Source: Acholoe squamosa (lineage: Eukaryota > Annelida > Polychaeta > Phyllodocida > Polynoidae). Taken from it: a DNA stretch of 64,000 nt. The notes beneath the pieces were generated by a model. It worked only from the letters and a program-made list of their open reading frames with translations, did not search any database and had not been told where the DNA came from. This document shows, piece after piece, positions 4,901 to 64,000 of the stretch; position 1 is the first letter of the stretch; the number at the start of each line of letters is the position of its first letter. The stretch lies in contig OX439036.1 of assembly GCA_949317995.1 (NCBI GenBank), positions 26,681,854 to 26,745,853 of the forward strand. The letters are read 5' to 3'. A program made the position numbers and the translations under genes.

Positions 4901-7900
4901 TAAGTCTACACTGAATGAAAGGAATTTTCTCATTGGTTAATAATGTATCCCGCTAGGTCGGAATACTACTCGTAGTCACCTGACCAAGTACCCAATTCTT
5001 ATATACTACTACCGAGGTCAGACTTTCATTACAAGGGCAGTCACCTTACTACGTGTCCCATTTTTATAGACTATAATACAGGGGTCATACTTCCATGCTG
5101 GTTCCTTCACCTGGCTAAATGTCCCAATTTTATATACTACTACAGGGGCTACACTTCTCCCGTCTACATGTTCAACATTTCATATACTACTACAGCGGTG
5201 AAAGTTCACATTGCCTATTAGTAGAGTAGTATTGGTTCAATTAGTTGACAATATTCATTCAACATCATACCTTTTGTGCTCCCTGGAGAGGTGGCAAACT
5301 CCAAGTATGTAGCCAACTTAAGAACTCACCTATACACTACTGGTGTAGTCACCTGGCCAAGTACTCAATTGTTATACTTCTACCAAGGTCAACACTCATT
5401 ACAAGTAGAGTTACCTGGCTACATGTCTCATCTCTATACACTACTCCACGGGTCACAACTCAATACTGGCAGTCACTACTACTACACTTCCAGACTGCTT
5501 CCTGCACCTGGCTCTATGGTCCACTTTATATACTACTACAGTGGTAACACTATTTACTGGCACAGTCACCTGGCTATATGGCCCACTTTTATATACCATT
5601 GTAGGGGTCGCACTTCATAACTGTTACAGTTGGAAAGATTCTAGACCAGTTGCACAGAAGGAGTATTGAAGCGACAGATATCGCTGGTAACTCGGAAAGT
5701 GGAAGACTCGCCATTTTGACACTATAGTGACAGCAAAGAAGAAACGAAGTCCATACGTCTTGCCAGCTCTCCTCGCACCCGCCCTTTTGTTTTCTTTGCC
5801 GTCATTCGACGGGCTATGTTATACTACTGTGGCAAATTTTCTCAAACTAGAGGTAAGCATTAAAATGCTCAAAACTCGGAAAGGTGGTGCCAACTTGGGC
5901 ATTCATTCTACAAGTCTGACATCAGCACTGCCTTTCACAGGCACCAACTAGCCCCAAGCAGATATTCAGTACTTTGTGTCCTATATTTTTTAACAACACA
6001 GCACATGTGCTTGGAGTCAGTTAATGCCCATTCTGTGTGGTCAACAAATGAGTAAACCCTCAAAAAGGGCAGAAAAAAGGTTTCCCAATGGAATGTGTAT
6101 TCTTCACCATTGGACACCCAAAGGGTCGCCTCTCTGCTATTCCTATACAACATTTTGTAATCTATCTATTATGATAACATCACACACTTATTGAACCATC
6201 AAACTACATTTTTATGACCTCAACTTATTACTCTAGCATTATGTGAACATATTTTTGTACAGTTAGACTTATTTCATCCTTTATTTTGACAAACTTTACC
6301 CATCTCTGCCTCTTTTGGGGGACCCCCAAAAGTGTCTTAATCCATGGTGGTGCCTATAACTCTTCCCGAGTTAATAATTTCAAATCATATTTATTATGCC
6401 TGTTTTTGCATGGATCCATCTTCTTCTCCCTACACTCTAACATATTATCAAATTTAATTAAATAACTGCCATGTTTGTATTGAAGTGAGACGCAATCGGA
6501 ATGTCGTAAAAGTTGAGCTGCTCGGAGGATTTTTGGCAAAGTGAGTGAGTGAGTGAGTAATAGATGTTTAACGCCATTTCGACAACTGAGGTCATATTCA
6601 TGGTGAGAACTACATTACACAATTTCACAGGGAATGTGTCAGTGCCCGCACATATGTGCACCACACACATCCGAGGAGATAGGAAAGATAAGATATAGAC
6701 CCTTTTAAGTGGGCTAGGGAAGCCCAGGATTTTTGGCGAAAACATGCCGAGACGAAATGTCCAAAAGAACCAAAGAAACAAGATTAACATGTAATTTATC
6801 ATTTTCCATTATAGTTTTATCACGTATGTGACACCCAACCCGCCTGGACCTGACACCCAGAATGACACCTCCATAGAAAAGCATTGAGTGCACCAAGTGT
6901 CTAAGTTGGACTTCAGGTGACCTACTTTTTTCAAACCTATATTTGACAAAGATTAGAATCTTATAAGAGGTAAATGTTACACCTCCATGATCTTGAACAT
7001 GTACACTATCATATGATATGTTTCATTTCATCTCATATTTGATGGTTTTGATGTAATTTGAGGTCAAACTCAACAACCTCTTCCCAGAAATGCTCACTTC
7101 CGGTCTTAAATTTCCCCAGCCCCTACCTGTCTCTTAAAACTTGGCTTTCCGAGTTAATTATCTCCTTACTAAACTTTAACTGGGCAACATCAGAAACACG
7201 ATCCCTCTTCTAGTTTAAACCGATTATTCTTAAGAAATAACAGGATTAATTTGTAATCTGATAGAAGAGACAAACGATGTTTTCACTAGAGGACCTCAAA
7301 AGCTTCCATGAAATGGGATAATCCCTCAAATAATATTATTTTTAGATTCAGGGGAAAACACAAAATCAAATCAGCAGATGTAACGAGTATACTTTAGGGG
7401 CTTCTTTCTTAAAGTTGATTCCGGCCCCATTTCATTTTATTACAAAACCGACGAGGGAAGACATTGCCAGCAATACCAATGTTGCCATGAGCAAGAACCC
7501 ACATGCATTGCCAAACTTTTATGTTTCTGGGCGGTCATAACGTCAACTTAGGACTACATTCTTCTTTCTGAGCAAAGACAATAGAGGACGTCTGGATAAA
7601 ATGCCCACTAATAGTACTTAGCGAATCTGGCAATGAAATTATAGGAAGTGCTCTACCTAAACATGTACCAACCCATTTGCTGCCATGGAAACAGGCGGCC
7701 CAACTTCATTACTCAAAGGTTGGACTCATTGGTCAATCAAGACAGAAGAGGTTGATGAAACTATAGGTCCATAGCCACCAGGACTAGTTTCCCTCCTCCC
7801 TACTTCGTCCAGAAAACGGTGTGTCCAGTTTAATCTGAGGTCAAAACTTGTAAATGACAATATGGAAACTTGTGCTTTTTCCTAGCAATCAAAGGTGGAA

Positions 7901-9464: not shown

Positions 9465-9526
<62 letters not shown>

Positions 9527-12500: not shown

Positions 12501-15500
12501 AATTGACCAATGGTTGGGTTGCGCTGAAGGGAAGGGAGCAGGGGCTGAGTAATACAATTGTGTGGCCGGTGGGGAGGTCAATAGTCCAGCAAACGCTGGG
12601 TAAGGACTGGACACACGGCCTCCAATGGACACGAACAACTAGGATACAGCCATTCAGATGATCCATCTTACAGACAGGAAGCCATGGGGACTCTATGGAA
12701 ACTGAAACATTGCATGGCACACACGGCATCAGCTAAGACTTGTACATATGAAACAATGGAAAATGATTGCACCATTTTTCTTCGGTAAACCTGGTCACAC
12801 AATCAGAACCCAATCTCACTCTATACACATCAATATTAAAATATGACAAAATTGGGTCTTTATAATCACACTAGACCAGCCATTGAGCAAAGGAAATTAT
12901 AATCTATATATAAGTGGACTTCGCAAAGGAAAGCAATTGAAAGGAGAGTCTCTTGGTGCCTTAGATTTCAATACACTTCCTCAATGTGAAATGATTTATC
13001 TCGACACACCCTGACAGTCCAATGTTTGCTTGCGCGTGTTTTAATAGTAATAGAAATGGCATATCCCACACAGAAAAAAATCCATCGCATTTCTTTTAAG
13101 TTTCATTAAGACGTTTAATAACCTCTAAGGAAAATCCACAGCCAAAGAAATTTGGAATCATGAAAAAAGGTTTAAAAGACGTATTAGAGACTCCCGGGAG
13201 AGACTGTGGCATATTTAGTTTTGATATTCTGCGCACCAGTGATGCTTTGCTCATCCTTTTAAGACTTTTTAAAGAGAAACAAGGTAGTGTAGAGGTGTGG
13301 ATGTTTTTAATTTTCGTCCTCCCAGATCGTTTTAACACATTTAAACTAAACATCTAGTTGAGGTATCCTATAAGTTGTAGGGAATCTTCATAATATTTTT
13401 TCTCCAGATCATACCCCCCTTTTTACTAACTATGTAATCCATGCATTATGGTTCTTCTGTACCTAACAGGCAAATGGAAACTGTTGATAGAGTGGCGAAG
13501 GTCGAAAGGAAGCCATTGTGTTAAGACTTGGCATATACATGTATACGGTGATCAGAACGCCAAGTATATATTTCACTTAAAGTTGTATATTAAACACCAC
13601 TGTGGTGACCTACCTATGAAAAGATGATATATATCCATATTAACGCACAGTTCTCCTCCAATAGGCTTCCATCTAAGTGACATGAGTCCACCACTCATTT
13701 TACTTAAAAGAAAATGGCTGATAAACAGTCCAGCCCTTGTGTGTATACATATCTGGGCTTTGAGAGGCCGAGTGGCACTGATTCTCAGTAGCTGGGTATG
13801 AAAGTTAAGAGTAATTGCCTCCAGTGTACCCCCCTGGAGAAGCCACAATGCTAGCAGCACCTGCAGAGGTCGTGTAGGGCTGATGCTCACTTAGGGAGTG
13901 GCATGGACAGTGGTAGTAGCTGCAGCATAGGTCTGTGAGTGAGCAGCTCATGAGTGGGTGTGTCTGGCTCAGGTGTCAGCCAATCAATATGGCCGTACCA
14001 GGTGTGCCACCACATGGGAACCCTCAGGGCCTTCTTCATAAACACAGACCTGCCATCCAGGGCCAGCACCCTGCTTGATACCAGTGGTATCTATCCTATT
14101 CCACCTGTGGGCTCTGGGCAATGATAAATTTGAGGAAATTATGCATTCTTGTAAGCCACAGGATGGAAGTGACTGTGCCCAAAAGTAAAAATTGAATTAC
14201 TTAAATATAATCCCCTGAATATAGGTCTGGTATGGGATTGTATAGGCACATGGAAACTAAAACCCCTGGAATGATTTCCATCCATGGAATCATCTGTTCA
14301 GCTGCATGTAAGTTTTAACTTTTTTATAAAAGCAAAAACAGGTCAGGATAGGGGAATTACTTAAACTACGTAATGTTAACCCCATGTCAAAAGTGTATAG
14401 CATACTCCACCACGCGGTCAATCAAGGGAGATATTAAACCATTTTACTATGCTTACTAATGAAGAGTGTCCTGGCTCTTTCCAGTTTCCAAATCCAGAAC
14501 TACGTCCCCATTAGTTGAAGAATAACTTCAAAATTGTGACTGTGCCAAAGTTCAGACCGATGTCTAATGTGAGTTCAAGGAAGAAAAGTGAAGTCTATAG
14601 GGGAGGTCGATTCTCAGGTAAAAAGCTGTGGGAAGACGTACACCCTGTGTGAGGTGCCCCTACACAACAGCATCTTCAACACATAAGCCATAATGCCCTA
14701 AGGCGTCTACATATCGGGGCATGTTTTCTGAGGATGGCTATGGGGAGAAAATGTCAATATGATCCATCAGAGTGTGATTGAACACAGCACCCTGTGTTTA
14801 GTGTTATAACAAAGCAAGATTCACCAAAAGTCACCAACCGATGTGGGAATTGTCTCATTGACTATGTTCCTACAACTTAACAAGTGTTCTTGTTCCAGAC
14901 CTGTTTGCTCCCAATAACACAAGATATGATAAGGCTGCAATGGTCAATTGTGCAACAGCACGTGTGCTAGGTATCGATGACACTAATTGTGTCCAATCTG
15001 CACGTTTTCCTCGTAGCTTGTTAGTAAACCCAGAATTATATCATTAACCTCTACTAGACCTTTGATCGTAATGATCATATTTTCATAGAGTAAAAATGTC
15101 TAAGGATAGGGCATTGCCCTAAAATGATCTATGGGCAACTGTGTTCTAGATGCTATGCTAAACTATGCTTTAACTAATTGCTGACAAATAGTGAGTAATT
15201 ACTGACATATATTGAATAGTTGCTCACAAATACTGCATTATTACCGACATAGGAGGAGGTACTGGCATATATTGACTGAATGCTGACAAAAAGTGAGTAA
15301 ATACTGACATGTATTGATAATTGCTGATATAGAGTGACTAAGTACTGACGTATATTGACTAATTGCTGACAACTTGTGAGTAAATACTGATATATATATA
15401 TATTGACTAATTGCTGAGAAATAGTGAGTAATTACTAATATATATTGATTAATTGCTGACAAATAGTGAGTAATAACTATCATACCATAGCATTAATATT

Positions 15501-18500
15501 AACCTGTTATGGCCTTAAACTCAATACATGTACCGTAAAAACTCAGATTAAAACACAAATTAAAACACAGAATGGCGTCAACATTTTCAATCAAACAGCA
15601 GAGAATGGACAAATGGAAAGACATCGATTCAGCAATGACACACATCTATATATATGGAAAAGTACCAAGATACTGGATAATTATGCTAATTATGCAAATA
15701 ATATGTGCGGATATGGAATGTTTGGTATCAATCTGGGGTGTTTCGTCCCCCTAAAGGACATGCCCCCTTAAAAAATCGGTTTTGAAAAAGAATAAGCGAA
15801 ATAATTTTTTTGACTAGGTGCCTTTTCGGCCCAGCCAGTCCACCTGTGCCCTTACCATGGTGTGGACGCGCACTACCTTCTGCCAAAAGATACCTGTTTT
15901 GCGCTCAACTGGCGAAAAAAAGGCTATGTTTAAGGCAGGAAGAGGTCGAAAAAGGGTATTTTGAGGGGGGGGGGCTACATGCCAGTGCAGGACTGGCAAA
16001 GGGGGTGCAGGGGGTAGTCAAAAACCTCATATAGGAGATTTCCCATAGTGTGACCTATGATTTAAGGGTATTTCGAGCTGGCGATCATCATGGTGATGTT
16101 TATTTTCACCTATGGTCAAGCATAAGAAAGTTAGCTTCCAAAAAAGTCCCTAGCGTCAATGCACCACTATAGCAAGGCACAGGCGAGTTTGGAGTGTGTA
16201 GAGCAGTAGTGCATAGGGATTGCACAGCATAGAATACAAATACACTAGGCACAGGCTCAATAACTACTAGAGCTACATTCATGTATACAGTGTTATTGAG
16301 TTACGAGCATCAATGCACCACTATAATGATGAAGTGAGTGCCAATACAAAGACTGGGCTGTGTTTTCACGGCTCAGGACGTCTCTGCAGGTAATGTGGGC
16401 TATGGTAGTGATTGTATAGCAATAAGACGTGTTAGGGCCGCGTTTTCGCGCCTTATGACGCCTCTGCAGGTAATGTGGGCTGTGGGAGGTGGGAAAAACA
16501 CAATTAAAACACGCCCTAAGGGGGGGGGGGTATTGGGTGTCTCTACTGGTGCTGGTGACCATAGGGAAGTATGTGCGGCCCCTGGACAGCCTGCTAATCC
16601 TGTAAGGATCACAGTGTGAATCAATGCATCATAAACCCTATGCACTGCCCTATGTTTACCCCTATAGAAACAGACACCAGTGCATTAAAGGGTTAAAATG
16701 GGTTTTCACAGCTATATCCAGGGTGAGTAGACTTTCTTTGTCCAAGCACTAACAGCCAATATTAAAAGGATAGGTTGGTCCCTGTGCAACCCTATGTGTA
16801 ATCCTATGAGTAAAAAAGGGCAATATGTGGCTAGGCTATAGCAAGTCTACACTAGAAGGGCGATTCAACATCGGTGAACATGGTAACTATTCTTTGGGCA
16901 GTCTATGCCCAAAGAATAATTAATACCTTTGTTATTAGGGACTCACATCCTGCCTCAAATAAGGCAGTGGTCGAGGTTACCTATCCAGAAATGGGGAACT
17001 TTACCCCCCCTCCCCGAAATAAGGTCCCTTTTCGAAGATCATGTCAGATGATTCATTTTAGATAAGTGTCAACTTGAGAAGGATCTTCGCGCTAAAACTT
17101 GGATTTACCACCATTATTTGAGCAAGAAAAATAACTACCGTTGACTAGCACTGGAAGCGTTATGTTAATACGGACTTGTGCTGTCACCATTACCAGGAAC
17201 TCATACATTACGCCCACGAACAATTTATACCTGAGAAAACAGGTGCACATGTCAGCTTCCAACGGAAAGAATATATCAATAGGTCCTCAGCTATTTTAAG
17301 TGCTCAATACACAGCGGAAGTGGTCAGACATTAGAACTGAATAAAAATAAGTTATCAACAAAAATATTGTTCCTAGGTGATTTTCATTTTTCTCAGCTTC
17401 AATTATGCAACATTCTATTTCCCCAAAAGGCCAAGAATCTTCTTCTCCATGTACAGACTGTTATACCTTCATTATGGTCCCATAGTACTGACTTATACAT
17501 ACCTGAAGGGGAACTGAGTGGTAGGACTGAATGAGGACATTCGGTTTCTCTTTATGCCACCCAGATGGTACTACTAAAGGAGTCTGGAAGTAACAGTGGG
17601 ACAATAAGAGTAAATGATGTAGAGAGGGATGCCGCCCATCTCTTTTACCCCAAGCCGCCACCATGCCAGATAAATACCCACGCCCCCTAATAAACCTCAC
17701 ACCCCATTACAGAGGTATGCCATTCATCACCCTGCACCATACAGACTGTGGTGTGAGCTGCTCGCTGGGTGACTCAGGCATGCTAACAATGACGAGCTAC
17801 TCATTTAGAGGGAAACAACTCACCATTGCCTGGTAGGGATCATGTCACCACTATCAAATAATAGGGGATGATGATTAAGCTTTATGTCAAAGGGGTGAGT
17901 GTGCATTATTATAAAGGCTCATCGTGGCCTTTGGGGACTTGAACCACCTTTCAGGTTTCATTGAGAGTATAGGAGTAGCATAAATAGAAACAGGAAAGAG
18001 AAGGAAAGTAATTCACAGTAGACCTACCTATGGTGTACCAAAGTATTCATAAGCACATATGCGAGGTTATGGGAGTCGTTGTTATCACAAACCCTGGCGA
18101 GGTCCAGGGTTCTAGACTTTCTATTCGTTAAATATCACAAAACTTCCATACTGAGGGATTTGATTGATTTATTTGTGTTTTACAGCACTTTAGCGGCACT
18201 AAGTGGCTATCCCGTGCTTCACAGGTTGATAATTTATCAGAGGAATGTGTCAGTGCCCGCGCATATGTGCACCACACACATCCTGAGGGGATAGGAAAGA
18301 GGAGATATAGACCCTTTTAAGTGGGCTAGGGAAGCCCGCCATACTGAGGGAAATCTAATACATCGCCTGTCTGTAGAATATACCCAATACCTACAATATT
18401 GAAGTACAGCACTGATTCGTGGCGACTCCAACTAAGCCTTGCACCAGCTTGTTATTCCTGATTTATAAGCTAACTGGTGTTACAGGGGCCAGTATAGGCC

Positions 18501-21500: not shown

Positions 21501-24500
21501 GTTAAATAGTGTTTTGAATAAAGGCATTTTATGAAAACTAGAGGAAAGCGATAAATCGCTGATAACTCGGAAAGAGGTTTTCTACTCTGATGGTTATCCA
21601 CAAAAGAGGAAATAATCTTTTGAGATATGTGGCCTTTTTGAAATGTGTAGCTCCAGATATTACCATTGAACATTCAATGTCTACAGTATTAAGCTACTGG
21701 TACTGAGAAGGGTGGTGCCAGCTTGGGTTTCCATTCCAAAGGTCTGACATCAGCACTGCAGCTGGTTAACACACCACAAAAGGGAGGGAAAAAAGGTTTC
21801 CCAATGGAATGTGGATCCTTTAACGTTGGAGGCCCAAAGGGTCGCTATGGCACAGATTTCAGTGATCAATTTGTTATCACTGATTTCTGATATGATAAGA
21901 CCTTTATTCAAAAAGTATTTGTATTGTACATGATCTCAAGATTGTACTCTACATGTATAACATAATATTCTGAAAGTATAGAGGCATTTTCATACTTAAT
22001 TTGGACAATGTTTCCGCATTTTTGTCTCATTTTGGGGACCAACAAAACGTTTTACGGTTTTAATCCATAGTGGTGCCTATGACTCTTTTCGAGTTAATGA
22101 TGTTTTAACAAAAGTGAATATAGTACCCCTTCTGTAAAAAAAGTAACAATCTATATACTACAATATCCAAGGATGTGTCATTTGTAGCACACTTACTTGC
22201 ATAAGAATGTAGCTGCTCGTATTTAGGGCCATGTTTATATCTAGCTAGTTTTAGTCTGACAACTTGGCCTGTGTTCTTGAGTACCTCTACTGCCTGGTGG
22301 TTGGAGAACCCTTCAAGAGGCTGGTTATCCACCTTAGTTTAGGAAAACATGGTATGTCTTAGTGTTTAGGCACATAGGATATGACTTCAATCTCCAGGGA
22401 TGAAAGTGACTGGGCATAAAAATCCCTGAAATGCTCAATTAGAATCGAATAAACGTAGGTTTTTCTCAGGAGTGTATAGATTTTTGGAACTTGAAAATCC
22501 CTGGTATCAGGAAAACTCTGAAGACTACCATCCCGGAATTATCTCATCAGATTATACAACATTCTAAAGCCATGGATAGCGTATAAATGTGTTAAATCCT
22601 AGGTTGTCAGAAGAAAAATGTGATTAAGTCGGTTGTGTAGACATGCCATCCCTACAGACCAAGTTCACAAAAAGCTATCAACATATATCATGTATTTTTA
22701 ACAGGAAGGCATAATTAGTACATGAAAAACGCCTATGTAAAACCTGGTCTCGGCTGCTCTTCCTTTTTGTATAGAGAACTGTAACAATGAGGATATTGCC
22801 ATATAGCTATCTTATTAATAAATCACTGTCTATACACGAGTCTACAAAAAGGGGGTCTTACTTCGACGATCTGGTCATTGACTTGTATTCTACCATCGGT
22901 GGCTGCTGCGCTGCCGTCGGCAACGCTTTTTACGAAAATACCCGACAGCTCTTCTGGAATTGACAAAAAATAGAAACCACAATACAAATAAGGGAATAAG
23001 CTAAGATACACGTTATATTTGACACCGGGCCTCAATATTAGGCATACATTTGAGAAATGATTAATAAAATGAGCGAAGGTTGGCAATTACTAAATCTCTC
23101 AGATATATCAAGTTAATAATCATCGTCTGGAACCAAATTACCCACTACCATGAGTACTTTCCACTGTTATTCAAATCACATTTTATATCATTATCTGATA
23201 GGAGTATCTTCTGTGTGTATATATGTTATACAAAAAGAAAGAAAACTCGTCTTGCAAATGGAATAACAAATGTAATTCTAAGGGGATGGAATCAGACTTC
23301 TGTCCAATTTGAGATCAATGTCTGACGTGCTAATGGGATCGTTGCGATGGATGTGACAGTTATTTTATTAATTCCCATATGTTTTGAAGTGTATCGGTAG
23401 AAAGTGACAAATGTGATGAAACTCGTTTAATTGGATAGTAAAAGTAAAATGTAGGGGTAATTGGAACTGGATATCTCAAAGGTTCCTATTGAATTGAATA
23501 CATCCTATGACCCGCTAATTTTAATGCATGTTCTGTAGAAATGTTTTAGATACACACTGTATTCTTATAACATGATAGCAAGATAACCTGGGCAATGGCA
23601 GCTTAGATATGGCACGGAAAATATTCCCTTTACCTGTTGTGACTCCTGAACACTGGAAATGTAATTATCTCTCTAATGTATACCTTTTCCATGACAGTGA
23701 AGCTTGTACTAAATTGTCTCATGATAACATGCTACTTTATTCCCTGATAAGCAGGTATTTTGCATTCCTTTGTGCTGATAAGCAGGCAATTTGCATACAG
23801 AAATACCCAGACGGGGTGAGCGTCAGTTAAGGAACCTACCTGAGCTCTTCTCTCCTACGTATCCCGCTATCGTGATACCAAGGCCTTGAGTGCCTTTTAC
23901 TAACTCAACATCAAAGAATTCTACTGGAGTGTCGAGCAGCTCGTTTTCTATGCCGGGCTGTAAGGAAAACAAATGAAGTTTTTTAATCCCTCGATACATC
24001 ACATTGCCTCTAGGTTTATGCTTCTTGGTCGCCATGATACTGGATGCAGTGCTGGTGAGTCCACTCTCCAGCACTGCATTGGTACAAAATGCTGACCCTG
24101 TCACAGCTGCATTCATACATGCACCAGAGATGCCACTTGCTGATCAGAGTTTGATAAGAAATGTCTAAAAACATCACAGGCAAAATTTCAAATTGGGCAT
24201 AATGCATAAATCCTCCTTTGTCTCCCATAAATTGAATGTGTTAATCCAACATCACGACATTGTGTAAAGGCTTTTACTGAATGACTTTATTGCTAACAAA
24301 ACCAATGTATCTTAGAAGTACAATTCTTCTTTTAATCTTCTTCTTTTTTCAAAATCCCGTTTATGTGGTAATGAAACACTACGCGACAAGGCACATTATG
24401 GTTCATTTAGGGAGCCATTGACAACAAATGATGAACAAAAGAAATGCAATTTAAAATTTAAGAGGTGTGGAAAAATAAAAAAAAGCGGCTGCATTGAATC

Positions 24501-30904: not shown

Positions 30905-30912
30905 ACATAAAA

Positions 30913-33022: not shown

Positions 33023-33023
33023 A

Positions 33024-34048: not shown

Positions 34049-35393
34049 CACTATAGTTTGATGGCGGTGCATTTAAATCGAAAAAAGTACATCCAACTGC
34101 TGTTTACAGCAGAGCCAGGCTTACAGGAAACCATACAGTGGGCGGAGACGTGAGGACAACCCACTTAGGAAAGCCTTAATGTGGCTATGATTGAGAATCA
34201 AGGTTCCCAGTTGCCTCAGGGGGAGACCCTGGAGCCACCTGATATCTCCTACAGGTAGAACTCCTACACCGCACACCTGATAGAGCGTCCTCTGGTGGGA
34301 AGTGCCCCTATGAACCTGATTTTAGAACTCTGTCCAAAGGACCAGCGCTAACACGCCCTTAGCAGGGGCGTGATAGTGAGGGGACCCTTTAGGGTGATCA
34401 GTTGGGGGTAGGGTCTATAGCCTAATGGTGATAGGGGGAGTGGGACTTGGTACTGCCCTGCTAGACCTTGATATGTGGCCATGTAGCTGTGACGTTTATG
34501 GTTGTCACAAAAGCCTTTAACAGAGGTCGGTCTAAACTTAACAATGGACATCACATGGATGCCATATGGCTTCCCTCAACTTCTTCATTTAAAAACGGAC
34601 GGATCTGTTTATGCTACTTATTGTGACACAGGTCCCTCTCTCATAGTAGCATTTTCTTATACTAGTTACAAAATTAGAGGGCTTCTAGTGGGAAGTCTCA
34701 AGCTCCTTACATGGATAACATGCCTCCTTACAAAAGTCACCATATTCGTATACTACTCACATATAAGAGTAGAAGAAGAGTGTATAGAGACATGCTATAT
34801 CAATTTTTTTGTTCTAAAGGCGTCATGTAAAGCTAACACAAGTTTAATATCCATCGCCATATGGTGGATGATCGTATTTAAGTTTTAATAATACGTCCTG
34901 TCGTCATAGAAACACGGTCTCTCTGAATATAATATGGCTGAATTATTGAGTGTTATGTAATAGCTCCTATGATCCGTTCCGCGTTGTCAAAAGACTAGAG
35001 AATTTCTACTGATACAAGGTTATTACAGTGCAGCTCTGGGACAGGTGAAGAATACGTCTTTCTGAATTTAGTTATTCCTGCAGCAGACACAGAAGTACGG
35101 CCTCTTCAAATGTTGGGAACAAAGCACTCTTTATCTATACCAACATGAGAAAACACACACCAATATGAATAGACTCTAAAAGGACCTATTTCTAGCAAAA
35201 CACATGCCCCTGAAGCTACCTAGCAGGTTTGGTCGTCTCTCAATAAAGCCCCATTGAGAAATATTATCAAGAGATGGGTAAGCGTAATGCTGACTGGTAT
35301 TTACATTAAAGCCGAGCGCATATTAAGACTGCCTCAAGCCACGAGCAGCTCCAGCTCCAGCCGAGCAGCTCAGGGAAAATAGCTAATACATAT

Positions 35394-35612
35394 ACAGTAA
35401 AACCCAGGGTATAAGCCGCATCTGCATATATAAGCCACACCCTGAGTTCTAGGGAATGCTATAAGCCACACCTGAAGCCTGAGATGGTTGCCATTCCTTC
35501 CTTTAGTGTATATGTACAAAGCCCCTCGTATAAGCCGCACCTTGAGTTCAGAACATGCTACAAGCCTCAGCAAGGGCCTGAAATGGTCTCTTAGTCGTGG
35601 TTTATACACAGA
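35394..35612. mobile_element. TATAAGCCGC-type repeat
   Basis: GTATAAGCCGCA, ATATAAGCCACACC, ATAAGCCACACC and GTATAAGCCGCACC recur between ACAGTAAAACCCAGG and GTCGTGGTTTATACAC. It resembles the element at 11845-12040 but is more diverged. Confidence 0.6.
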
Positions 35613-37397
35613 GATACAATATGACAATGTGGGCTCTATACCTTTTCAAGTTGTATATATGCGAGTCATAACATTCACTATGGGACACAGGGAACACCAG
35701 AGATGAAAGAATCTTATTCACACAAAATACCAAGGACGCGGTGCGCTAGGGTGATGCATTATAGAGCTGCTCGGTAGAGCTGCTCCGCAGACATACCTCA
35801 GGGGCTCTGTGTAACAAGAGCAGCCCATTTATCACGTGACACTTTACCCCAGGGACTCTGTGGAAAGGGAAAACAAGGCTTACATGTACAGAAGTGGGCA
35901 TTGGATGATTGCGAAGGAGGCGAAGAAATATATGGAAAGGAATTCAAAAGGCACAGCATGCGATGAAATGGAATTAGAAGGAGATACTGTGGATCCATGA
36001 GGGGAAAGTAGATAAGTGATGGGGCTATGTTATGTCTTCCCACTGTGGTGGAATGCTTGTTGCTACAGACAGTAGTCTTTCTATGCACTGTTTATGATTC
36101 CTCTGCCCTCTGCAGACATGTATATATTACCTCGTTATATCTCATTTCACTTTAGCCTGTTAGGCATTTTGACAACATACACTGACCTTAAACACCCTCC
36201 CCCCATAATCTTTGGAATCTTTTACAATGGGTATCCAATCTCCTGGTCAATCTGCAAGACGCTAGGCCACCTCAGGAGGCCCTATTACACATGTAAGTAG
36301 GATGGATGGGATAGGGAGGGTGTGACCTTGACTTATCAAAGAAAAGAGTTAGCGACGTCTTAGGTGGCTATCAGGTAGACTGGTCACGTTTACATCACAC
36401 AGCAGGGCCTGGCATAAGTGAGCACAGATTAAAGATGCAACTTCAGCTAAACTGTCCAATAGGAAAATGATTGATTGATGATACCTTGGCAAAAGTAACC
36501 TATTTCTCAATTACATGCCATGCAATATTTTGATGTGAAAGTACCCTTTGTGTGTAAATAGAGGACACCTGGATAAAGGATATCCCTTCTCTAGCGCAGG
36601 AAATCCAAGGCCACATTGCCTATACCGATATTGTATAACATAAGGGGGCTACATCAGCTTACCCTCTACCATGATATCCCTATTCATGCCACGGCTAAAC
36701 CGTGTATTGCTTAGCCACAATGTGCCACTAATGAGCCATGAAGGAACCTATACTACAGAGGTGACCACTCATCCATGACAAACCAAAACACTAACTCAGT
36801 GCTAAGTTATCCAGTTGTTTTAGTGTCGGCCTACAGTAAAAATTCTGAGTCTAAATATGCATATTTCAAGCTGAGAAATACTGATATTGTTTTTAAAAGT
36901 TGGGAAATACTTTTAGGCTGTGTTACCCTTTATGAATATGATATGACTGAAAAAGGATACAATTTTAGCTGGGATACGATCTTTAAGTGAGGACTGCATC
37001 TACGTGCAGCAACATTTCCTCAGGAGCTATAAAAACTTGTATACACTATCTCAGTGTTGATAGCAAGATGATGAAGGATATAGACATTTAAGGTTGTCAT
37101 TTTATTACAGATTAATGTTCTCAAACGGCGAACCATATAATCCATAAAAAGATAACATTGTCACATAGGTTCTTTTCTACATAGTTTGATGAACCGAGAT
37201 GACAATGCTAAAAATGACAGGCTAAAATCCTTGCTCATGTTGGGAAGTCCTTGTGAATTTATAAACATATCCGCCTGGGACTCACCAAAATTGGCCAATG
37301 AGTAAATTATTCATAAAAAGATGTCATCTCTGATTTGCAAAGATTTTCTGCTTCAAAGCGGTTCTGATCTGCAGGACACCATAAACATTCCCCATTG

Positions 37398-52123: not shown

Positions 52124-52244
52124 TATAAATAGTTATCCTATCACTTGACCGACCATATTCATCTGCGCATGCGCGTGACGTCGCATCCGAGGCTATGTCC
52201 AATGAGTAAGCCAATCAGGATTGTCTATACAGCCAACCAATGAG
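52124..52244. promoter_or_regulatory. Promoter-like cluster: TATA-like, NRF1-like, CRE-like and three CCAAT boxes
   Basis: TATAAATAG lies at 52124-52132, TGCGCATGCGCG at 52164-52175, directly followed by TGACGTCG at 52176-52183, then CCAATGAG (52199), CCAATCAG (52211) and CCAATGAG (52237). These match the textbook sites for TATA-binding protein, NRF1, CREB/ATF and NF-Y. With CCAAT boxes upstream and the TATA-like site (read as CTATTTATA) downstream, the order suits minus-strand transcription starting near 52095, the same direction as the PDZ gene. No exon following it was recognised, so the transcript is unknown. A GAGCTGCTCA motif lies at 52281. Confidence 0.5.
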
Positions 52245-54121
52245 AGGCAGGTATACAATACCCCCTGGAGGGACAAGAATGAGCTGCTCATCACGAGGTA
52301 CCAAACTGCTCACGGTGGTCCTCCCCTATTCAGACCATGCACCAAACAACAGTTAGAATTTTGCAGCTCACTCACATCGTCCAAGTGAAATAAAAGTTGC
52401 ACTGTGGTGACCATTCATCCATGCTGGCCTTGGACAATGCGCCACAGGATATAAAACATCCCCAAACAAGTGCTTAAGGGCTTACTGTGGCCCTGGCAGC
52501 GCTGGCCGACCGGTAGCTTCAGAGTTGGTATGATGATGGATCTCCCACTGGAAGCCAGAGGTACGGTCCCGACAAGAATAATAAATAAAATATATCAGAT
52601 GTCACAGGCAACGAATACAGATGGCCTAACGAATGGTTGACGTCTCACCATCGGGTCTGTTTGCCATAAAGGCATTTATCGCCATCCACTTCTCCAACTA
52701 GTGTATGTATATTATAATACATCTCTAGGGATATTGTTTGCCTGTCTAGGTAAATGAACTGAGTAGATGTAGCCACTTAATACTAATATTATCCATCTGT
52801 CTATTTGAGAGCGTTGGTAAAAGCTTTCAGCATTTACACCAGTCAGATTTATTGTTTAATGCACTCTCATACCATCCATCATTCATGACTTCATGAACCT
52901 GCGAAGTGGGGAATGTTTTCTTGGGTTGGTGCTGCATGAATAGGCCTATAGCACATGACGTCAATGTCCCCTTGCAGATGGGGATCAGCCATGGTATTCA
53001 TTAGATCCGTCATTTTCTGCGAGTACCACACGAAGATGGGTAAGCTGGCCATAAGAGGTTGGAGCTGCTCAGTGGAGGAAGGGTAGATGAGAACAAGGCT
53101 GTGAAGACCATGCTGGTGCAGCCACCGTGAAAGCCGTATCTGCTAATCACATTACATGTGGCCTGCCGTGAGCAGTACCTCATCTACTGTTATTGGGTCA
53201 GGGTGAGCTGCTCACACGTGGGCTGTGGGTAGGGTCAGTTCTGGCTGTAGTGCCCTATCACACACTGCCATCATAGCGAAGCACCCTACATTAATAATCC
53301 AAAGAACCTTAAGGGAGGGGAATCTGATTAGGGCTATGTGCCTAGTAGATAATGAAGTCGACAGTCCTGATACCATTCCCCCAGATTGCATGTATCTGGG
53401 GAACATAGCCTGCACTGAGACAACGGAGGCCCTACGTCCCTTATGTCATGAATTATCTATATATCAGGACTATGCTTTTACCATATCCCTTTACAGTGGA
53501 TCCGGAACATAACGCGATATTCTGGTACAAATGTGGATGACATTGAGATCAGTATGTACATGCAAAATGTGATTAAAGATGATCCTATTATCCAGCTAAT
53601 GCGCCAGTAGGAGACAGCTCGGACCTCTTCCTAATTAATAAGACATTTCAAACTTTCAACTAACTAATCTCACACAATTTTCATCCTATAAGACCATGTC
53701 TGATTCATAAAATCAGATAGAGCTAAACATATCACAGCCCTACACAGATACTGCGACACCCACGATCACTGGTCAAGTATTATTAATCCACATTCGAGGC
53801 TGGGTATTTTCCATACAGGGCTTAGATTTCTGATATGTCTATGCAAGAGAGCAGTCCGTGTCTAAATAACCTCCAAATACAGTGCACTGGGAAGGGGCAC
53901 ATCTGCAGCAATGAAGCATAAATTAATCTATCAAGAAAAAGATGAGGACATTAGGTTTACTGTTTGAAGGGTTGTAAGGTTTTACTGTCTGCACTTAGTG
54001 CCACATAAAAAGGTTATGAGCGCTATTGAATTTAAAGTAGGTGTTTTGTAATATTAAAATCATAGTACATGGAGTTTTCTTTTCACCAATAGAAAGACGG
54101 CAAAGTGAACACCACTAGGAT

Positions 54122-54283: not shown

Positions 54284-54658
54284 GCACGCTTAGCCTTAGG
54301 TCCCCGAATCGGCTGCATTTGGATTCGGTAGGCCTAGATGTGGCTAACTGTGGGGTTGATAGAATATAGATTGATTGGGACAGCAGTATATTGCATTAGG
54401 GGTCTAATCAAAGCTCATTTGACATAATGGTATTGCATATAGATTCTATGAATTTAGACAACACTATGCTTATAACGACGATATAGATTAATACATATCT
54501 GATTCTGTAAATATATACAGAGCAAGGACAGCTGACGGCAGAATAGTGACAGCATGGAGATCTTGTGAGGCCCCTAAATCTGAAAATCTCCCAAGGTACT
54601 CCTTTTGAGGGAGAGGGGGCCATCTGAAGTCCTTTCCCTATTTGCTTTGGGCTTTGCT

Positions 54659-54850
54659 TACCTGGTTGGAGATGCGGCGAATGTTTCTGGGGTCGTTTAG
54701 GGGATGACCCCGTCCCCTAGAGCGTCTTGGGCGGGGCCGATACTGCTGTCGGTCTGTCCGAGCCTGTACGTAGTACATGGCCATAAGCATGGCCCCACAG
54801 TAAAGGTCCACATCCTTATTAGCATGACGCGGACTGGTCATGATGATGAC
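54659..54850 (-). other. Possible coding exon, unidentified
   Basis: A minus-strand frame is open from 54916 and reaches a strong donor, CAG|GTAAGC, at 54658. A possible acceptor is ACACACCACACAG. The peptide includes DVDLYCGAMLMAMYYVQART, an Arg-rich run RPRPRRSRGRGHP and DPRNIRRISNQ. I recognise no family. The frame could be chance; the donor and biased composition are the only support. Confidence 0.25.
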
Positions 54851-57800
54851 CACCGCTATCAGACTGTGTGGTGTGTAAGGGCACAGGATATCATATCCCA
54901 TTAACCTCCTGACCAAAATTTAATGATCCTACAGGTATCACTGTGTCAAGTGCTTCTACAAATCTCCTCCTGCCTATTGTGAAAACAAGAACACTACTAC
55001 AACAGATAATGTAGAATAACGACGTCCCCTTAGCATGTGGTTATGGATACACTGCAATCCACTTAGGCTGGGGTATTATCTGGCTGCATGAAATACCAGT
55101 CGGATTGGAGCTCATTTCTCATGTATTGTGATTCATATAATGCTTCAATGTCTATCCTGTGTGAGTCTTAAACATAGCAAACTGCTGTACATCGTGTCAG
55201 TCCAATACAGCCTGGTAAGATGTGATTTACTCGTGTCCACAGGTGAGAATGCTCAATGTGACCAGGTATATAGGGGGACTAAACACAAGGGTAACTGCCT
55301 CCAGACACGCTACCAAGCACTTTACCTGCTCATGGAATGCTCTCAGTTTCATTCAGGATACCTGCTACAAGGGCCTCCTCCACTGAGTTGGCAGTGGGAA
55401 GCTCACAGGTGGCTGTCTGTTGTATGATAGGAACTGGTGTAGTGTAAGCTAGGGTTAGGGGGCGGCAGGCTGAGGCTTAAGTCCGATGAGAGCGACAGCC
55501 CGCCGCCTGTTGTGGACCAGTCACATTTGGCTGCGGCTACTGCCTTAATGCTATTGCTGCCCCTGTTGCCCTATGTGTCAGGAGGTTAGTGCTACATCCT
55601 CTCACAATCTCATAATGCCCACATGGCTACATTTGCATTCTCATCGAGCGTTCCCTAACTTTGTTTCTTTTTCCCATGTTTTATCCTTTACAGTGTGGTT
55701 TCCGTAAGTAGGGACAGGGGGCAGAAGCCAGCAAGGCTCTTCATCATTCATTCTGCACGATCTTAAGTAGTCAGACCAACGACTTAAGTTACATACAATG
55801 TTAGAACGTCAGCCCATTGGCAAGCACATTGAAGGCAGCGCTGGTCCATTTTGGCTAGTGTATGTTTTGTAGATGGGGTCCGGCCCTGAAAATGGCAACT
55901 CTCTCTTCATAAAAGGACATGGTCCTGTTGTACTTTGGGGCTATCAATAAGAGCACATTGCATACCGGCCTGTATCAATCCGTCACACTCGGGGAACACT
56001 TCCCTGCCGCCCGTGACGAGAAGGGGGCTATGGAGACGTATAGCTAAAAAGTCAAAGGTCAACCCTCTTCATCTCCATCCAGCGTGATATTAGTAGGCTC
56101 TGAGGCGCGAGCAGCTCACACTGTTCCAGAGCAACAGCTGTGAGTTGCTCCACGGTTCGCGGCTACTCTCCCTACTTCAAATTAGCTCCCATTCACAATT
56201 CATGCCTGAGGCCATAAGGTGGGGGGTTGAGGATCGATTCTAAGTATACAGAAGAGGCACGATGTTTCCAAGTCCAACTGGTAGGGGTGAGGGTGTGGAG
56301 GGTCCCCTGGGGGGAGGGGGACACATTAACAGTGTACAGCTCAAAGCCTAGCCCTATGGTGCCTACTATGAGCAGCTCCAAGACTTGCTCACATGCTGTA
56401 TGTCGACGGCATGTGTGCTGTGTAGAATCAATATAGAGAATTGGACGATAGAGGCACTTGGTACCGTCAGCAGGTCTAACAAAGCCATCTCCCTCTTAAT
56501 CCATGGTATTGCTAGGGCCGGAGACCAAGAGGGGAAGAGTCACACTGGTAACCAGTTACGATCCATCACGACAACACACGACTCCTGTCAGCGGCTCCTG
56601 ATAAGGTCTGTAGACTCCGCCTCCCTCCCCATGTCCCTCTCCTCCAGAGTCTGGATGCTGTAAGAGCCGAGCCGTCGCAGTACTCATAGGCAGCAGGAGG
56701 CCACTCCTGTACCGACAAACACTCCCCATAGGCCCACACTCCTAACTGCTCATAATGAAGCACGAGGTACAGAAATGAATACGGCGGCTCCCAGAAGTGA
56801 TTCTATATGGAGGCCATGGGTTAGATATGTTTTCTGTGAATAAAGTCTATGGTATGACGCTCTCTCTGTCAGGCAGTGGCCATATATATGTTTGTACGTG
56901 GGCGACGTGTTACTGGTGTTATTTGTCACTGGAAAGCATTCACTGAGGTCGTAGTGATGGCGGTTGACAGAGGAGGCAACGCCTGTAGGAAACATATGGC
57001 TTTGTTCTTTTCCATTACTGACAGATCAAAAAGGGGCTTGTTTTGTGAGAAAACTTTGTTAGAAGGGCATGACCTCCCCCTGAAGCATGTCCTGTGATCC
57101 ACGTGATCCACGTGCCAAACACACCTAACATCTGAAGGACATACGGGGACATGGCACCCGAGCAGCTCAGCTAATAGTGTGTTGCCTATTGCTGGGACAG
57201 AAGCGGTTCACAGGGCAAGGGAATGATCATTTAGACAGAGATGTGTAGAGCTGCCCCCGTTAATCAGACCTTGCTTTTATTGGGTGTGTGCACGCGCCAC
57301 TGTTGTGTGCCGACCTGATAGACTCATATGTGCTCAATGTGGGCGCAGGCCCTGACCTCCTACTTACTGAGCTGCTCACAGGCCGCTTACAGTACATCAC
57401 CCGGTGTCCTCTGTAAGCCGCCTCCCTGCCTGCAGTCCATGGTGCTACAAGGTTTCACAACCCACAGATCCCATTCTAACCATTCCTGGTCAAGTATCAC
57501 AAAGGAGTCGTGGTGGCATATGGCTGGAATCAATAGGTCTCCTGCTTAAGTCTAGCGTCCTAGTATTAAGGACAGAAAACAAGTCTCCTTCTGGCGTAAA
57601 TCTTTTTCCAACTACAGTAACTGCATACTCCACAACGGTATATGTGCTAAAAAGCTGGACCAGAAGCGATCTTCGCCTCCTTTTCCCACTGGTGCCTCTT
57701 CCTGTGCTGAATAGATAAGATGACCTGCTACACAGCACAGAATAGAGTGGCTCATACTCCAGTTATGAGAGTAGCTTTCAGTTGTTATATAGCAGACTGC

Positions 57801-60645
57801 CCCCTTTATTCCACTCCCTAATGGACCACTGACGGTCCATTCCAGCCAGAAGCTATATATATATACCAGCAGTGCTACCACCAGCAGTGATCCTCTCCAC
57901 AGCCCTCAAGTCACTGGGGCCTCATGCACACGGCTAGAGTCGTCCCCTGATGGAGACCTGTTCTGAGCTGCTCACCGGCCAGTCACTGAGCAACTCCGCA
58001 CCGACTCACCGGCCGCGTCCACTTCCACCAACCACTCACAGGGACGCTGATGATGATGGGCCTCCTCTAGCCGCCAACTGTCTCACCCGACCCCCATCCC
58101 TACCCCCTGGAGACCCTGGGTGCGCGTGAGGGAAATACCCGAGTCCTGATGTCCTTCAGCTAAAAGAGGACACAGCAGCTTGTTAACACGACCTACACAA
58201 TGGGGAGATCGTCAAAGCAGGCTACGTTGATACCAGCAGGACATCAAGGGGTACTGGTCTATCCCCATCAGACAAATCACCATCTACAGGTGAAGGAAAC
58301 TCCACACGACACTTGGGAATGGCACCACTGCCTTCAACACACATCCACAGGATCCACTGGGTTTTGTACTATTGACTTGGAGCACTTCCGAGAGCCCCGT
58401 GACTATCTTTTTTCTCCTTCCACCCATTGGATCGAAAACAACGTAAAGATTTCCATTATGCCAATAAATCCTCTGGACCAACGAATTCAAATTGAGTGAC
58501 CGGCTTAACAAGGCCGAACTGGGATTCTCCTCCTTTAATTCCCCAATTATGCCTCATTGGTTTTCTTGCCAACGCTGGCTGAGATGGGTGAGGTGTTGTT
58601 AAGCAGCAATATGAGCAGGGTTTAGGTCCCAATATCGAAATGTCACATTTCTATCTCACTTAAAAGGCCAAACGGATATCGTTCCCCTTGGGGAATAGGT
58701 TGATAATCTCCTGTTTCGCTTGGACTTTTAGAGTCTCACAAATACCTAACAGGAGGACAAGATATTGTCAGCTTCAATTAGCAACATTCATCTCAGGTGG
58801 CAGGCAATAAGGCAGTCCAATATTCCTCCTGAAGTGGCTGTTAAATCTTGATAAAGCCCTGTATCTTATTGCAGATTCCCGACACTATAAGAAGATAAAA
58901 AGGCACAGGGACTGCCACCGCTCCATAACGCTGAGCATGAATCTTAATATACTTGGGTGCCATTTCTTAAGGGCCGCTTTTATGATCAACCCTCGGAATC
59001 GTAAACCCGGAGGCTCCCCTACTCCAAAATGCTACTGGAGAGGCTGAGTGAGACGGATTCCCTCTTGGTACCGACTGAGGCATGAATGCCGGTCCACGCT
59101 GGAGGCCATCTTGACCAGCGTTTGATATATCCATCCATCACAAAGCCAGTCATCTCCACAGCCTCCCCCTTTTCTGCTAGCACCACTCAAATCCTTCTTC
59201 CTGAGAACAGCTTCTTTCTCCAGGCTTTCTCCAGGGACTCAGGCTCCAGGACCCGTAGTAGGAGCCCCTACTGGTCCCTCCTAGCCGGCCTCTTCTGACT
59301 GGTAGGAAAACTTTTCTTCTTGTGGTGCAGCTAACGGCTTGTGGTGCAGCTGACGGCTAAGATGGGTTTCCACACGGTTAGACAGACGGGTGTAGGCAGG
59401 TTTTGGGTAGTCACCACCCACTACCAACTGCAACTGTCCCCTGCTGACAAAGGCAGGCCGCTATGCATTCAGGATAGCAGCCGATAAGAATAGAATCTCC
59501 ATAATCTTCTTTCTCTGTCGCCTGCTGGTTCTGGTCATGCATTAATTACTTCCAAATACCGAAAGCCAGACTCAGGAGGATTGGTGGAAGCAGAAAGGTA
59601 GATATCTCTGAGGACATGGTATGCTTGGTGTCTGTCGCGTCCTGTGCCCATGTGACTGCTGCAGGCGCCAATAACAATCTGATGATCTATCATTGTGGTT
59701 AGAAATACCTCCGCACCACCGCGTCCTGGGCTGGAACAATCCATCACTGTACCCTTTACCTTTTTGTCTGCATGTCTCCTGCTCTTTTGTCATCAGGAAA
59801 TGTCTTGCAGTAGGCTATGGCCCCTTCATTTTAAGGTCCCTTACTGCGTTTGTGATTACATCGCGGCCAAGAAGCTTTCAAAGCAGTCAGTTAGCTCTCC
59901 CGCTAATCGTTTCCAGGATCAGTCGCACTTAAAAGAATCCATAAATCCAAATCCACTTGATGTGGCCGCATGTCGGCGTCGTGGGACTTGTTATATGTGG
60001 CCAATTCGCCGACCATGTGACAGCTGCTCTTGGTCGATTTGCTCTCATGTGGCCAAGAAAAGGACAAGGATTTAGGCACGTGGGCGTGAGTAGCTCGGGG
60101 CGAGCTGCTCACTAATCAACTCTGACCCAAGACCGACAGGTAGAAGTGGTTTAATGCCCATGTTCCAGCGTTTGGCAGTGGGAGAGCTTTCTATCAAGCT
60201 GAAAGACTCATAACATGTCGGCAGACTAGTGGAATACGGGCCCCCAGCCAATCCTGCCTATCGTCATTGGATACATTTAGCATCGTCACCAGCACATGTA
60301 CCATGCTCCAGTCACCAGTCTTAGGACAGCCCTAAGCCTTCAGCAGCATTCCCCATGGGGTGAATCTAGTTGGATATTTGGTCTGAGGATAGAGAGGGTG
60401 CGAGAGGGCTTAGAGGGCATGGTGTCGATGAACGTGGATCAGGAAGTTCCAATACTGTGGGCCTATTGGGAGAGTATCGAATGAGGGGTGAGGTGATCCG
60501 CCCTGCCATCGTTAGCCCCCATTCACATTCGCAGCCACAATCACACGTACCACCAGTAGGTGCAATGGGCGTACAATATGGGAATGGGGCGGAAAGGGGT
60601 GAGGGAAGGAGGAATGGAAAGGGGTTGAAGGAAGGAATGAATAAG

Positions 60646-60741
60646 AGGAAGGAAGGAAGGAAGGAAGGAAGGAAGGAAGGAAGGAAGGAAGGAAGGAAGG
60701 AAGGAAGGAAGGAAGGAAGGAAGGAAGGAAGGAAGGAAGGA
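60646..60741. repeat. (GGAA)n microsatellite
   Basis: About 24 uninterrupted GGAA units lie in a purine-rich region (60595-60780). They give meaningless Lys/Glu/Gly or Phe/Leu/Pro/Ser frames. Confidence 0.97.
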
Positions 60742-61457
60742 ATAGAAAAAAATATGAAAGGGTAATGGAGAAGAAGGTATAGGAATACCAAGGAAATATT
60801 CAAGCAGAGTGATTCAATTAAATGCCATAAATTTGCAGTGACAGGGGTGAAGATAAAGACAAAGGTAGAAGCCTAATAAATTGAAACATGAGGAAATGAT
60901 ATGGGATTGGAGGATCAAAGAAAACGGCCAGTAACAGGATATTAACTGATGGAGAGGGGAGGCAGTGGGGGTGAATGAGGATAGCGACGGCTAGAAGCAA
61001 AATGGAATGGAAGAGGTGAAATGCTACAAGTAGTAAACGGTGACTTAATGAATTCTCTGCTAACACTCCAATGGTCTTTATGATAGACTAGTTGCTAGAA
61101 GTCAGCTTATTCATATTCACGACTTCATGCCCTCTAATGCCCTACCACCTCCATTGTCACTGCCACACCAGTGACCAATTTTAATCATTCCAGTCGATAC
61201 CTACTACGTCTATAACCCCTTTCAGCGCCAAATAAATATGTTCAGCTTGTGAAAAGCACTTGCATGCAGGTCAACTTCCTCCTTCTCTGGATTATTGATC
61301 ACTAAAATGGGTGATTATAAAATGATAACAATCATGATAGCCTTTTAAGTCACTTATCTTTCTGCTTTACTTAAGTTTAATTTTCTGCCTTCTAATGGAG
61401 AATCGATCCGAACGCCCTGGAACAGGGAAGGGGGGGGGCAATAGAGAATATCCCAGG

Positions 61458-61612
61458 GTCGAGTGAGCAAGCGAGTGAGTGAGCAAGAGAGATTGGGTGA
61501 GTGAGTGAGTGAGAGAGAGTGAGTGAGTGAGTGAGTGAGTGAGTGAGAGAGGTTGAGTGAGTGAGTGAGTGAACGAGAGATTGAGTTAGTGAGCGAGCGA
61601 GTGAATGAGCAA
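61458..61612. repeat. (GTGA)n imperfect microsatellite
   Basis: GAGT/GTGA units with GAGA and AGCG interruptions span the stretch. It may be an orphan head of the dispersed repeat family seen at 6540, since no conserved tail follows. Confidence 0.9.
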
Positions 61613-64000
61613 GCGACAAAACCAGGCAGGTAACAGTAGCAGGGGACGAGCTAAATGTACTAGAGGCACTTTGAAGCGACTAAACAGCAGGCTATAGGTA
61701 TTCAATGAGCTGCTCACTCAGCAATGTCAGCTGACCTTGTTGGCCTGCAGTAAAAGGAGTCAGGGGTAGGACCGTGAAGAATGAGGGTGGACGGCAAGGT
61801 TAACTATGGGGTTAGTGTTAGTCCCCAGACGTTGTGTCGATACAGACAGCCACAAACTGCTGACACGTCCCAGCATTGATCCTCCTGTGTTGTGTGCTAC
61901 TGGTGCTAGGGAGTGGGAACTGCTTAAGGTATAGGCACTGGAGGTGGGAGCTGACTATCGTGATATATACAGAGTCAAGACTCTGGGACAGTGGGGCCGT
62001 ACCATTGACTGTTAAGTCCACATGGGAGTGCTACTGTGTGCTCAAGTGCATAGAGTCAGTGACTTCACATGGCAATACAGACGGACAGTACCTCTTCCAG
62101 CACAGGCTTTAATACAGGCATACCTCCTGGTCCGCGCTAGAACCTAGAATCCCATTAAACACAAGAGGCGTCGCCGCCTTTCTCTCTATTCCCAAGGAAT
62201 GCATCCATAGCGTGCTTCCAGGTGAAGGATATCTCCCTGGCGATATGGTGTATTATCAGAGCTGAGGCACACTGACCGAGGCATGGAGTTCTGGATATGT
62301 CGTGTCATACTTCCCTTTCTATTGAACAATGCCTGACACCTCCTGGTGGTTGTCCTTGGTTACTCATACAAAGGTCCTACTGCCTCCTCCTCCTCATGCA
62401 CAATAGGGGCAACATCTAGGACTAACCATTGTCAAATATAGTCTGTGAATAAAGTCAGAAGGTAGACTAGGAGCCACTTCATGAGCACCTTTCTCAGACT
62501 ATGACCAAGTCCCACTGCAGCAGCTAAAGTCGTTGACCTGTGTATGGCCTATGGGTGCCAGCAAAGAGGTCAGTATGTGGAACAAAAGGCCGCTGGTAAC
62601 CAGCACGTGTCTGTATCAGAGCTGGAGGTGGATGGAGGAAGTGTAGGTAGGCTCATACTGGAAGGACCAGTGTTGCTGTGTGTTGCTGATGACTGGAGCC
62701 CTAGTCATAGTGGTGGCAGTGGTGGTGGTGTCCGATGGTGCTGGTTGATGGTGGTGGTGGGTGGTGATAGTGGAGAACTGGTAACGTCGGCGCCACACAG
62801 ACCTGGCCCACGAGTTGCTCATGAATAGTAGTCCCCTGCCTCTCCCATCCACCCCTCCCTCACTGCTCCCTCAACTCTCGTGTATTTCTCCCTCTCGTTC
62901 TACTTGGGGCAGATAAAACGCGCCCATCCACTGCCCAAGCCGACAGGGAGGTAGGTCCCTTTCCACAATGCTCGCCTCTTTGTCCACCGCAGCCAACGCC
63001 AAGTTGGAACCAAAAGATCAGTTCAACGACTCATGATCAATCACCATCGGTGAGGGGGGGGGGGACAAGAAGATAAAGTAAAAGAAACTCCAGCCGGCCC
63101 CCTATGCTGGGCTTTTTGCCGCCGCCAGCCACCCCCCCCCCCACCTTCTCCCTCACCGTCTATAAGGCAGCCAATGTCCCAGTAGTACACGGAAATGGGG
63201 AAAGGCTGCTGGCAAAGGGTTTCCCTAATCCCGAATGCTCATGTATTCAACAAGAGCTTTTCTTCCGGCTGGTATGGCACGGCATATATTTGGGAAGACG
63301 AACGCTTCAAAACAGATATTTCTAATCAGTGCGTATCAGACATTCCCCACTAGGCTTAAGTTCCAATTTTTACTTCTATTTAATATTATACAACTGGGGA
63401 TTTTCTTTTCTTTTTGCAGTCGGCGAACACCGACTGCTAATACTTAACCACCAATACACTGAACTGCCCAGCTGAACAAGAATCTTTTCATTTTCATCTT
63501 TGATAGTTACACGCTTATCATAAAAAAGTCTCATGTCCCAGGGTCCCTTATACCAACCTACTTTGCCCCCCCCCCCCTTGGCGTTGTCCTCAGCCACTTG
63601 AGGACTAACAAAGCACGCATGCCACATAGCTAACTCGATCACTTGAGCTATTAAAACAAATTCATATACCATTTTCAGCTTACTCTTTATATATAGATGC
63701 ACGCATCACATACACTTCACCGCTTATCAAAGCCTATGTCAGCCAATATGTTAATCGCATGCGATGTGCCACTGCCTATTCAATGGCTCGCGTCAATTCT
63801 ACCAAAACTGCACTTGAAAAGACGCTACAGAATTACTTCTCCGTCGAAGCTTCTCTTTCACAAGAAGGAATCCTGCCTCCTTCTGGTCTTTTTTCTACTG
63901 TCGCTTCTCTAACTAGATGAAATGAAATTGGATGCCTTGGTTGGCATTACAGATTGGCACTGTCAGCATATCCCAGTGTTTCCAGTCCAATGAATAGACC

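Follow-up and report, generated by a model that had tools for sequence, protein, structure and literature searches.

Homotypic clusters of transcription factor binding sites in animal cis-regulatory modules are built on a short, strict core set in non-repetitive flanks, with exact copies and weaker ones crowded into spans of tens of bp. Long terminal repeat (LTR) retrotransposons can carry binding sites of host factors as well, mammalian endogenous retroviruses being an example. In HIV-1, according to the core-promoter passages of PMC3419132, Tat-responsive complexes depend on short CTGC motifs that flank the TATA box on either side. The palindrome GAGCWGCTC of the polynoid annelid Acholoe squamosa, described here from a window of 64 kb (the whole stretch of DNA analyzed, G000:C2:26681854-26745853, in an assembly of 1,481,437,319 bases and 63 contigs), shares features with all three systems. 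Judged from the sequence, GAGCWGCTC and its fuller form TGAGCWGCTCA are likely to be the recognition site, with a strict core of 9 bp, of a sequence-specific factor that probably binds as a symmetric dimer.

All 20 coordinates that the initial annotation of the window had given for GAGCWGCTC were exact, and no further copy was found within the 64 kb. The chance level was indeed far below 20, with a mean of 0.29 and a maximum of 3 copies in 100 shuffles of the window, and a Markov-2 expectation of 0.39; chance and base composition are rejected as the source of the excess. After repeat masking, which was incomplete but covered the sites at 13941 and 61707, GAGCWGCTC was the top over-represented 9-mer of the window bar a G run (18 vs. 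0.41 expected). One-mismatch variants occurred in the window at about chance level, except for GAGTAGCTC and GAGCAACTC, with four copies each (0.31 expected). With 312 sites per Mb (20 in 64 kb), vs. 48 per Mb genome-wide, the window is a hot spot, and it was chosen for its high count.

The finer claims about these copies were largely borne out. The TGAGCWGCTCA extension was present in seven of the 20 copies, ten of them lay at 52.3-61.7 kb, and clustering within the window was significant yet moderate (gaps ≤50 bp, 3 vs. 0.30 expected, P = 0.0025). The three close pairs had the spacings of 30, 20 and 13 bp attributed to them, although the 13-bp pair resembles a small local tandem duplication, as the 20-bp pair perhaps also does. 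The flanks, said to differ from copy to copy, did so overall but not in the outer bases, which were partly common: with the 20 copies oriented with A at the center, position -1 was Y in 18 copies and position +1 was A in 13, and both in the window and in the 264-kb region made up of the window and its surroundings the outer bases tended toward TGAGCWGCTCA.

The adjacent 200 kb, independent of the first count, held 33 GAGCWGCTC sites (1.2 expected). Over the joint 264 kb, GAGCAGCTC reached z = 39.8, and the runner-up among 362 CpG-free odd palindromes reached z = 4.1. The genome-wide total of 71,505 sites (35,793 + 35,712) in 1,481 Mb, or 48 per Mb, was about 7.7 times the Markov expectation scaled from the 264 kb (1.66 per 264 kb), and thus not at chance, although repeats contribute part of it. 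Among the genome-wide controls, a permuted palindrome occurred 7,464 times and the same permuted palindrome read backwards 12,531 times; the variant GAGCAACTC was found 14,323 times and its reverse 4,921 times, while the motif itself read backwards, which contains two CpG, numbered 2,172.

Exact and weaker copies were bunched throughout the 264 kb. Gaps between exact sites were ≤50 bp in 8 cases (0.52 expected) and ≤300 bp in 16 (3.0 expected), and one stretch neighboring the window packs four exact sites into about 205 bp. Seventeen of 66 one-mismatch sites lay ≤100 bp from an exact site, vs. 3.0% by area (P = 7.5e-12), and the same proximity was 4.4% for 71 scrambled motifs. G+C content was 50.6% around the sites vs. 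43.1%. The only motifs co-occurring within 150 bp were CTCAC/ACTCAC and a weak CACGTG, uncorrected for multiple tests. This crowding of near-match and exact sites would be as in the homotypic clusters of a binding site, except that the dominance of a single exact 9-mer is sharper than, to our knowledge, is usual in such clusters.

A new observation was that LTR-type repeats bear GAGCWGCTC both before and after a TATA box. A number of the first genome matches fell in a pair of direct repeats, spaced by 6,255 bp and identical at 398 of 410 bases, with a retroviral-type protease match between them that remained below threshold (E 1.3e-5, 26.1 bits vs. a cut-off of 28.2); we take these direct repeats to be probable LTRs. 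A related repeat, in L030, was 65% identical across some 600 bases and completely so in 5.2% of 9-column windows, and despite this divergence L030 and its relative keep both GAGCTGCTC, one of which sits 7 bp before TATATAA in each. Three or four sites are present per copy in a second lineage (L006, L036, and L037), whose similarity to the others was confined to a 26-bp match with one of them; two of these sites straddle the TATA element, which is TATAAATA in L036 and L037 and altered in L006. At two loci (G000:C1:207050/223568 and 3625829/3642352), copies of this lineage form pairs with a spacing of 16.5 kb, which suggests unusually long elements. A 50-bp tandem array (L006:5-1232) directly adjoins the second LTR-like repeat.

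Genome-wide, the site-TATA-site pattern occurred 3,317 times (1,712 + 1,605, some counted on both strands), and the reversed control gave 0. Among the matches listed, 33 of 34 distinct modules had a start-to-start distance of 30-36 bp between their sites, the pattern having permitted 21 to 47. These 34 modules sort into six rough groups, and the first-lineage groups share 71-88% identity in their 3' parts and are thus related subfamilies. Three further repeat pairs, 6 to 15 kb apart and 96.0, 97.4, and 97.0% identical, resembled LTR pairs. The position relative to TATA was therefore kept across diverged LTR-type repeats.

The near-match clustering and the TATA-flanking LTR pairs together indicate a cis-regulatory site, and they support the proposal of the initial annotation that the palindrome is a binding site for a dimeric or zinc-finger factor or another selected signal; the findings were neither a genome-wide count at shuffled expectation nor, for the 14 of 20 copies searched, a single ancient repeat family holding them all. 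A host factor would bind the palindrome as a dimer, and the clusters in the window region may act as enhancers or promoter-proximal elements. The presence of the site in LTR elements may reflect a role of the same factor in their transcription, whether they use it or are repressed by it. With two LTR sites straddling TATA about three helical turns apart, a bound activator could come to abut the basal machinery, or a bound repressor could cover it, and the data favor neither. More tentatively, and with doubt, putative dimers on both sides of TATA might form a promoter complex with TBP in several retrotransposon lineages, the host reusing the site in enhancer-like clusters.

As in mammalian endogenous retroviruses, a site frequent in the host is found within LTR promoters; the difference is that here a pair straddles TATA, with near-fixed spacing and in several families. 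With the HIV-1 core promoter, as portrayed in the relevant passages of PMC3419132, the LTR-type repeats have in common that TATA is flanked on either side by short inverted motifs, which there matter for the complex; the HIV-1 motifs are 4-mers next to TATA and linked to Tat, whereas here 9-bp palindromes have starts 30-36 bp apart. The likeness would be an analogy of layout, and no common descent is suggested. The main text of a survey of molluscan LTR elements contains the word "promoter" once and "TATA" not at all (PMC6238403).

That the sites are functionless remnants of LTR retrotransposons, or of other repeats bearing GAGCWGCTC that spread passively, appears rather unlikely. LTR-type repeats do hold two to four copies each, one family alone had 1,457 first-look candidates (40 of them scored), and satellite and minisatellite arrays also bear the site. 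Genome searches took in five stretches with 14 of the 20 window sites, leaving six (6515, 13941, 17755, 23934, 60102, and 61707). However, four of the searched stretches, with ten window sites, each matched only itself in the genome. For the fifth, the matches listed (40 of 1,052 first-look candidates scored) run over 35374-35613, between its two site pairs, the earliest of these matches starting 3 bp after the end of the nearer pair. All 14 searched sites were thus outside any common repeat, in agreement with the earlier view that the copies are not passengers of a longer one. Nor did nine LTR stretches match the 264-kb region at E 0.01; by these nine stretches and the four self-matching ones, the window sites do not lie in LTRs. 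Furthermore, 53 copies in the 264 kb were exact and 67 had one mismatch (41.9 expected; 66 places in the cluster count above), and these numbers would correspond to about 5% divergence if the copies were remnants, a level that a repeat search would recognize. Such divergence is too low for unrecognizable flanks and so points to selection, presumably acting on the GAGCWGCTC core.

One ancient repeat family, considered separately as the source, was rejected for 14 of the 20 window sites, which gave self matches only or lay outside the repeat. A genome search with the whole 10 kb around 60102 and 61707 returned only GAGT-array matches, the self match being absent too.

A signal of genome architecture or maintenance, for instance one that a non-activating protein binds for insulation, replication or recombination, would account for about 48 sites per Mb with a strict palindromic core and uneven regional density, and for sites in the 264 kb that have no TATA neighborhood. 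It is nevertheless unlikely, since the TATA-flanking placement in LTRs and the near-match clusters fit transcriptional control more simply. Very improbable is a mutational process, slippage or local tandem duplication around the palindrome, that keeps generating copies: the 13-bp and 20-bp pairs have the appearance of local duplications and a minisatellite with a GAGCWGCTC core exists, but the window copies have differing flanks and no other CpG-free odd palindrome exceeded z 4.1.

Several results weigh against a recognition site of a sequence-specific factor. The genome-wide total includes satellite, minisatellite and LTR copies. Among 100 places listed for C1:0-4.2 Mb, 86 were left without the satellite and 70 without two further repeat families; these 70 correspond to 16.6 per Mb vs. 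a model rate of about 6.3 per Mb, and at least 8 of them again lay in LTR modules or a shared repeat, so that the rate outside repeats was at most about 15 per Mb, or about 2.3 times the model. Four arbitrary 10-kb stretches of the genome held no GAGCWGCTC. The non-repeat excess outside the window region looks modest, and from this C1 rate and the empty stretches it follows that the window region stands out as a strong hot spot from an excess elsewhere that is weaker and less certain: over-representation in non-repeat DNA holds for the window and its surroundings, and is modest and uncertain elsewhere. Small local duplications somewhat raise the close-pair count. In the 264 kb, the sites were not TATA-adjacent (0 downstream and 2 upstream, with about 8 expected each before adjustment for G+C-richness), hence the LTR layout does not describe them. 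Finally, we know of no factor matching GAGCWGCTC, either from homotypic clusters or among standard sites.

In literature searches, GAGCWGCTC and GAGCNGCTC were not found among the matches listed. GAGCAGCTC occurs in 325 papers, where the titles and abstract openings of the matches listed were unrelated to the motif, and further searches gave no listed match recognized as concerning it.

If GAGCWGCTC is the site of a regulator, the dominance of one exact 9-mer offers a direct handle on that regulator in an animal. The TATA-straddling pairs would form a compact natural test of factor action from both sides of TATA, and it could be asked by experiment whether retrotransposons took over a host signal or contributed to its spread.

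Table 1. Exact GAGCWGCTC sites and neighboring one-mismatch variants, in window coordinates.
Element	Position	Strand	Remark
GAGCTGCTC	6515..6523	.	outside dispersed repeat starting at ~6540
GAGCAGCTC, TGAGCAGCTCA form	13941..13949	.	motif match
GAGCTGCTC	17755..17763	.	variant GAGCTACTC 39 bp downstream
One-mismatch variant GAGCTACTC	17794..17802	.	beside exact site 17755
GAGCAGCTC	23934..23942	.	perhaps in minus-strand exon of a PDZ protein (presumed likeness)
GAGCAGCTC, TGAGCAGCTCA form	28046..28054	.	first of 30-bp pair; stretch matches only itself
GAGCTGCTC	28076..28084	.	second of 30-bp pair; stretch matches only itself
GAGCAGCTC	35343..35351	.	20-bp pair; outside repeat (earliest match start 35374)
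GAGCAGCTC	35363..35371	.	20-bp pair; ends 3 bp short of earliest repeat match
GAGCTGCTC	35764..35772	.	13-bp pair, probable local tandem duplication
GAGCTGCTC	35777..35785	.	13-bp pair, second member
One-mismatch variant GAGCAGCCC	35818..35826	.	exact site 41 bp away
GAGCTGCTC, TGAGCTGCTCA form	52281..52289	.	~40 bp past CCAAT boxes; stretch matches only itself
GAGCTGCTC	53062..53070	.	stretch matches only itself
GAGCTGCTC, TGAGCTGCTCA form	53205..53213	.	stretch matches only itself
GAGCAGCTC	56109..56117	.	variant GAGTTGCTC 33 bp downstream; stretch matches only itself
One-mismatch variant GAGTTGCTC	56142..56150	.	near exact site 56109
GAGCAGCTC	56370..56378	.	stretch matches only itself
GAGCAGCTC	57160..57168	.	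stretch matches only itself
GAGCTGCTC, TGAGCTGCTCA form	57369..57377	.	stretch matches only itself
GAGCTGCTC, TGAGCTGCTCA form	57965..57973	.	variant GAGCAACTC 23 bp downstream; stretch matches only itself
One-mismatch variant GAGCAACTC	57988..57996	.	near exact site 57965
One-mismatch variant GAGTAGCTC	60088..60096	.	14 bp upstream of exact site 60102
GAGCTGCTC	60102..60110	.	variant 14 bp upstream
GAGCTGCTC, TGAGCTGCTCA form	61707..61715	.	motif match

The window is CpG depleted (0.51) and carries PDZ exons on the minus strand at 2876-25187 (Pfam PDZ, E 9.2e-13 and 6.9e-6), which we take to resemble those of MPDZ/PATJ; both features are in keeping with an animal genome, and some repeats have, to our eye, a molluscan look. 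Site 23934 is perhaps coding and may lie in such an MPDZ-like PDZ exon; Pfam gave no match for the open reading frame (ORF) spanning it. Of the 167 stop-to-stop ORFs of at least 62 amino acids listed for 26-64 kb, 134 were scanned, with three marginal Pfam matches (E 0.00074, 0.00085, and 0.0094), while 20 ORFs of this part scanned singly gave no Pfam match; no gene is claimed there. A tRNA search of the window found none, and Rfam returned nothing at gathering score, three matches at 30-64 kb (E 0.12-0.48) being far under the gathering scores. A promoter-like stretch at 52165-52241, about 40 bp before site 52281, combines GCGCATGCGC, presumably an NRF1-type site, with three CCAAT boxes, and no gene was found adjoining it.

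Among the repeats of the window, which gave 0 matches in scans of viral and bacterial collections, the dispersed repeat at 35374-35613 carries TATAAGCCGCA-like words, and a 64-bp tandem repeat at 4153-4690 consists of 8.4 copies with 95% matches, followed by decayed copies to about 5600. Elsewhere in the genome, minisatellite L035 (G000:C1:7176601-7181400) comprises about 220 units, mostly of 19 bp, with GAGCAGCTC as their core. The exact site is kept in 121 units, and the core was kept at 0.93 vs. 0.83 for the spacer, a weak indication, since the units had been selected for their likeness to a reference that contains this core.

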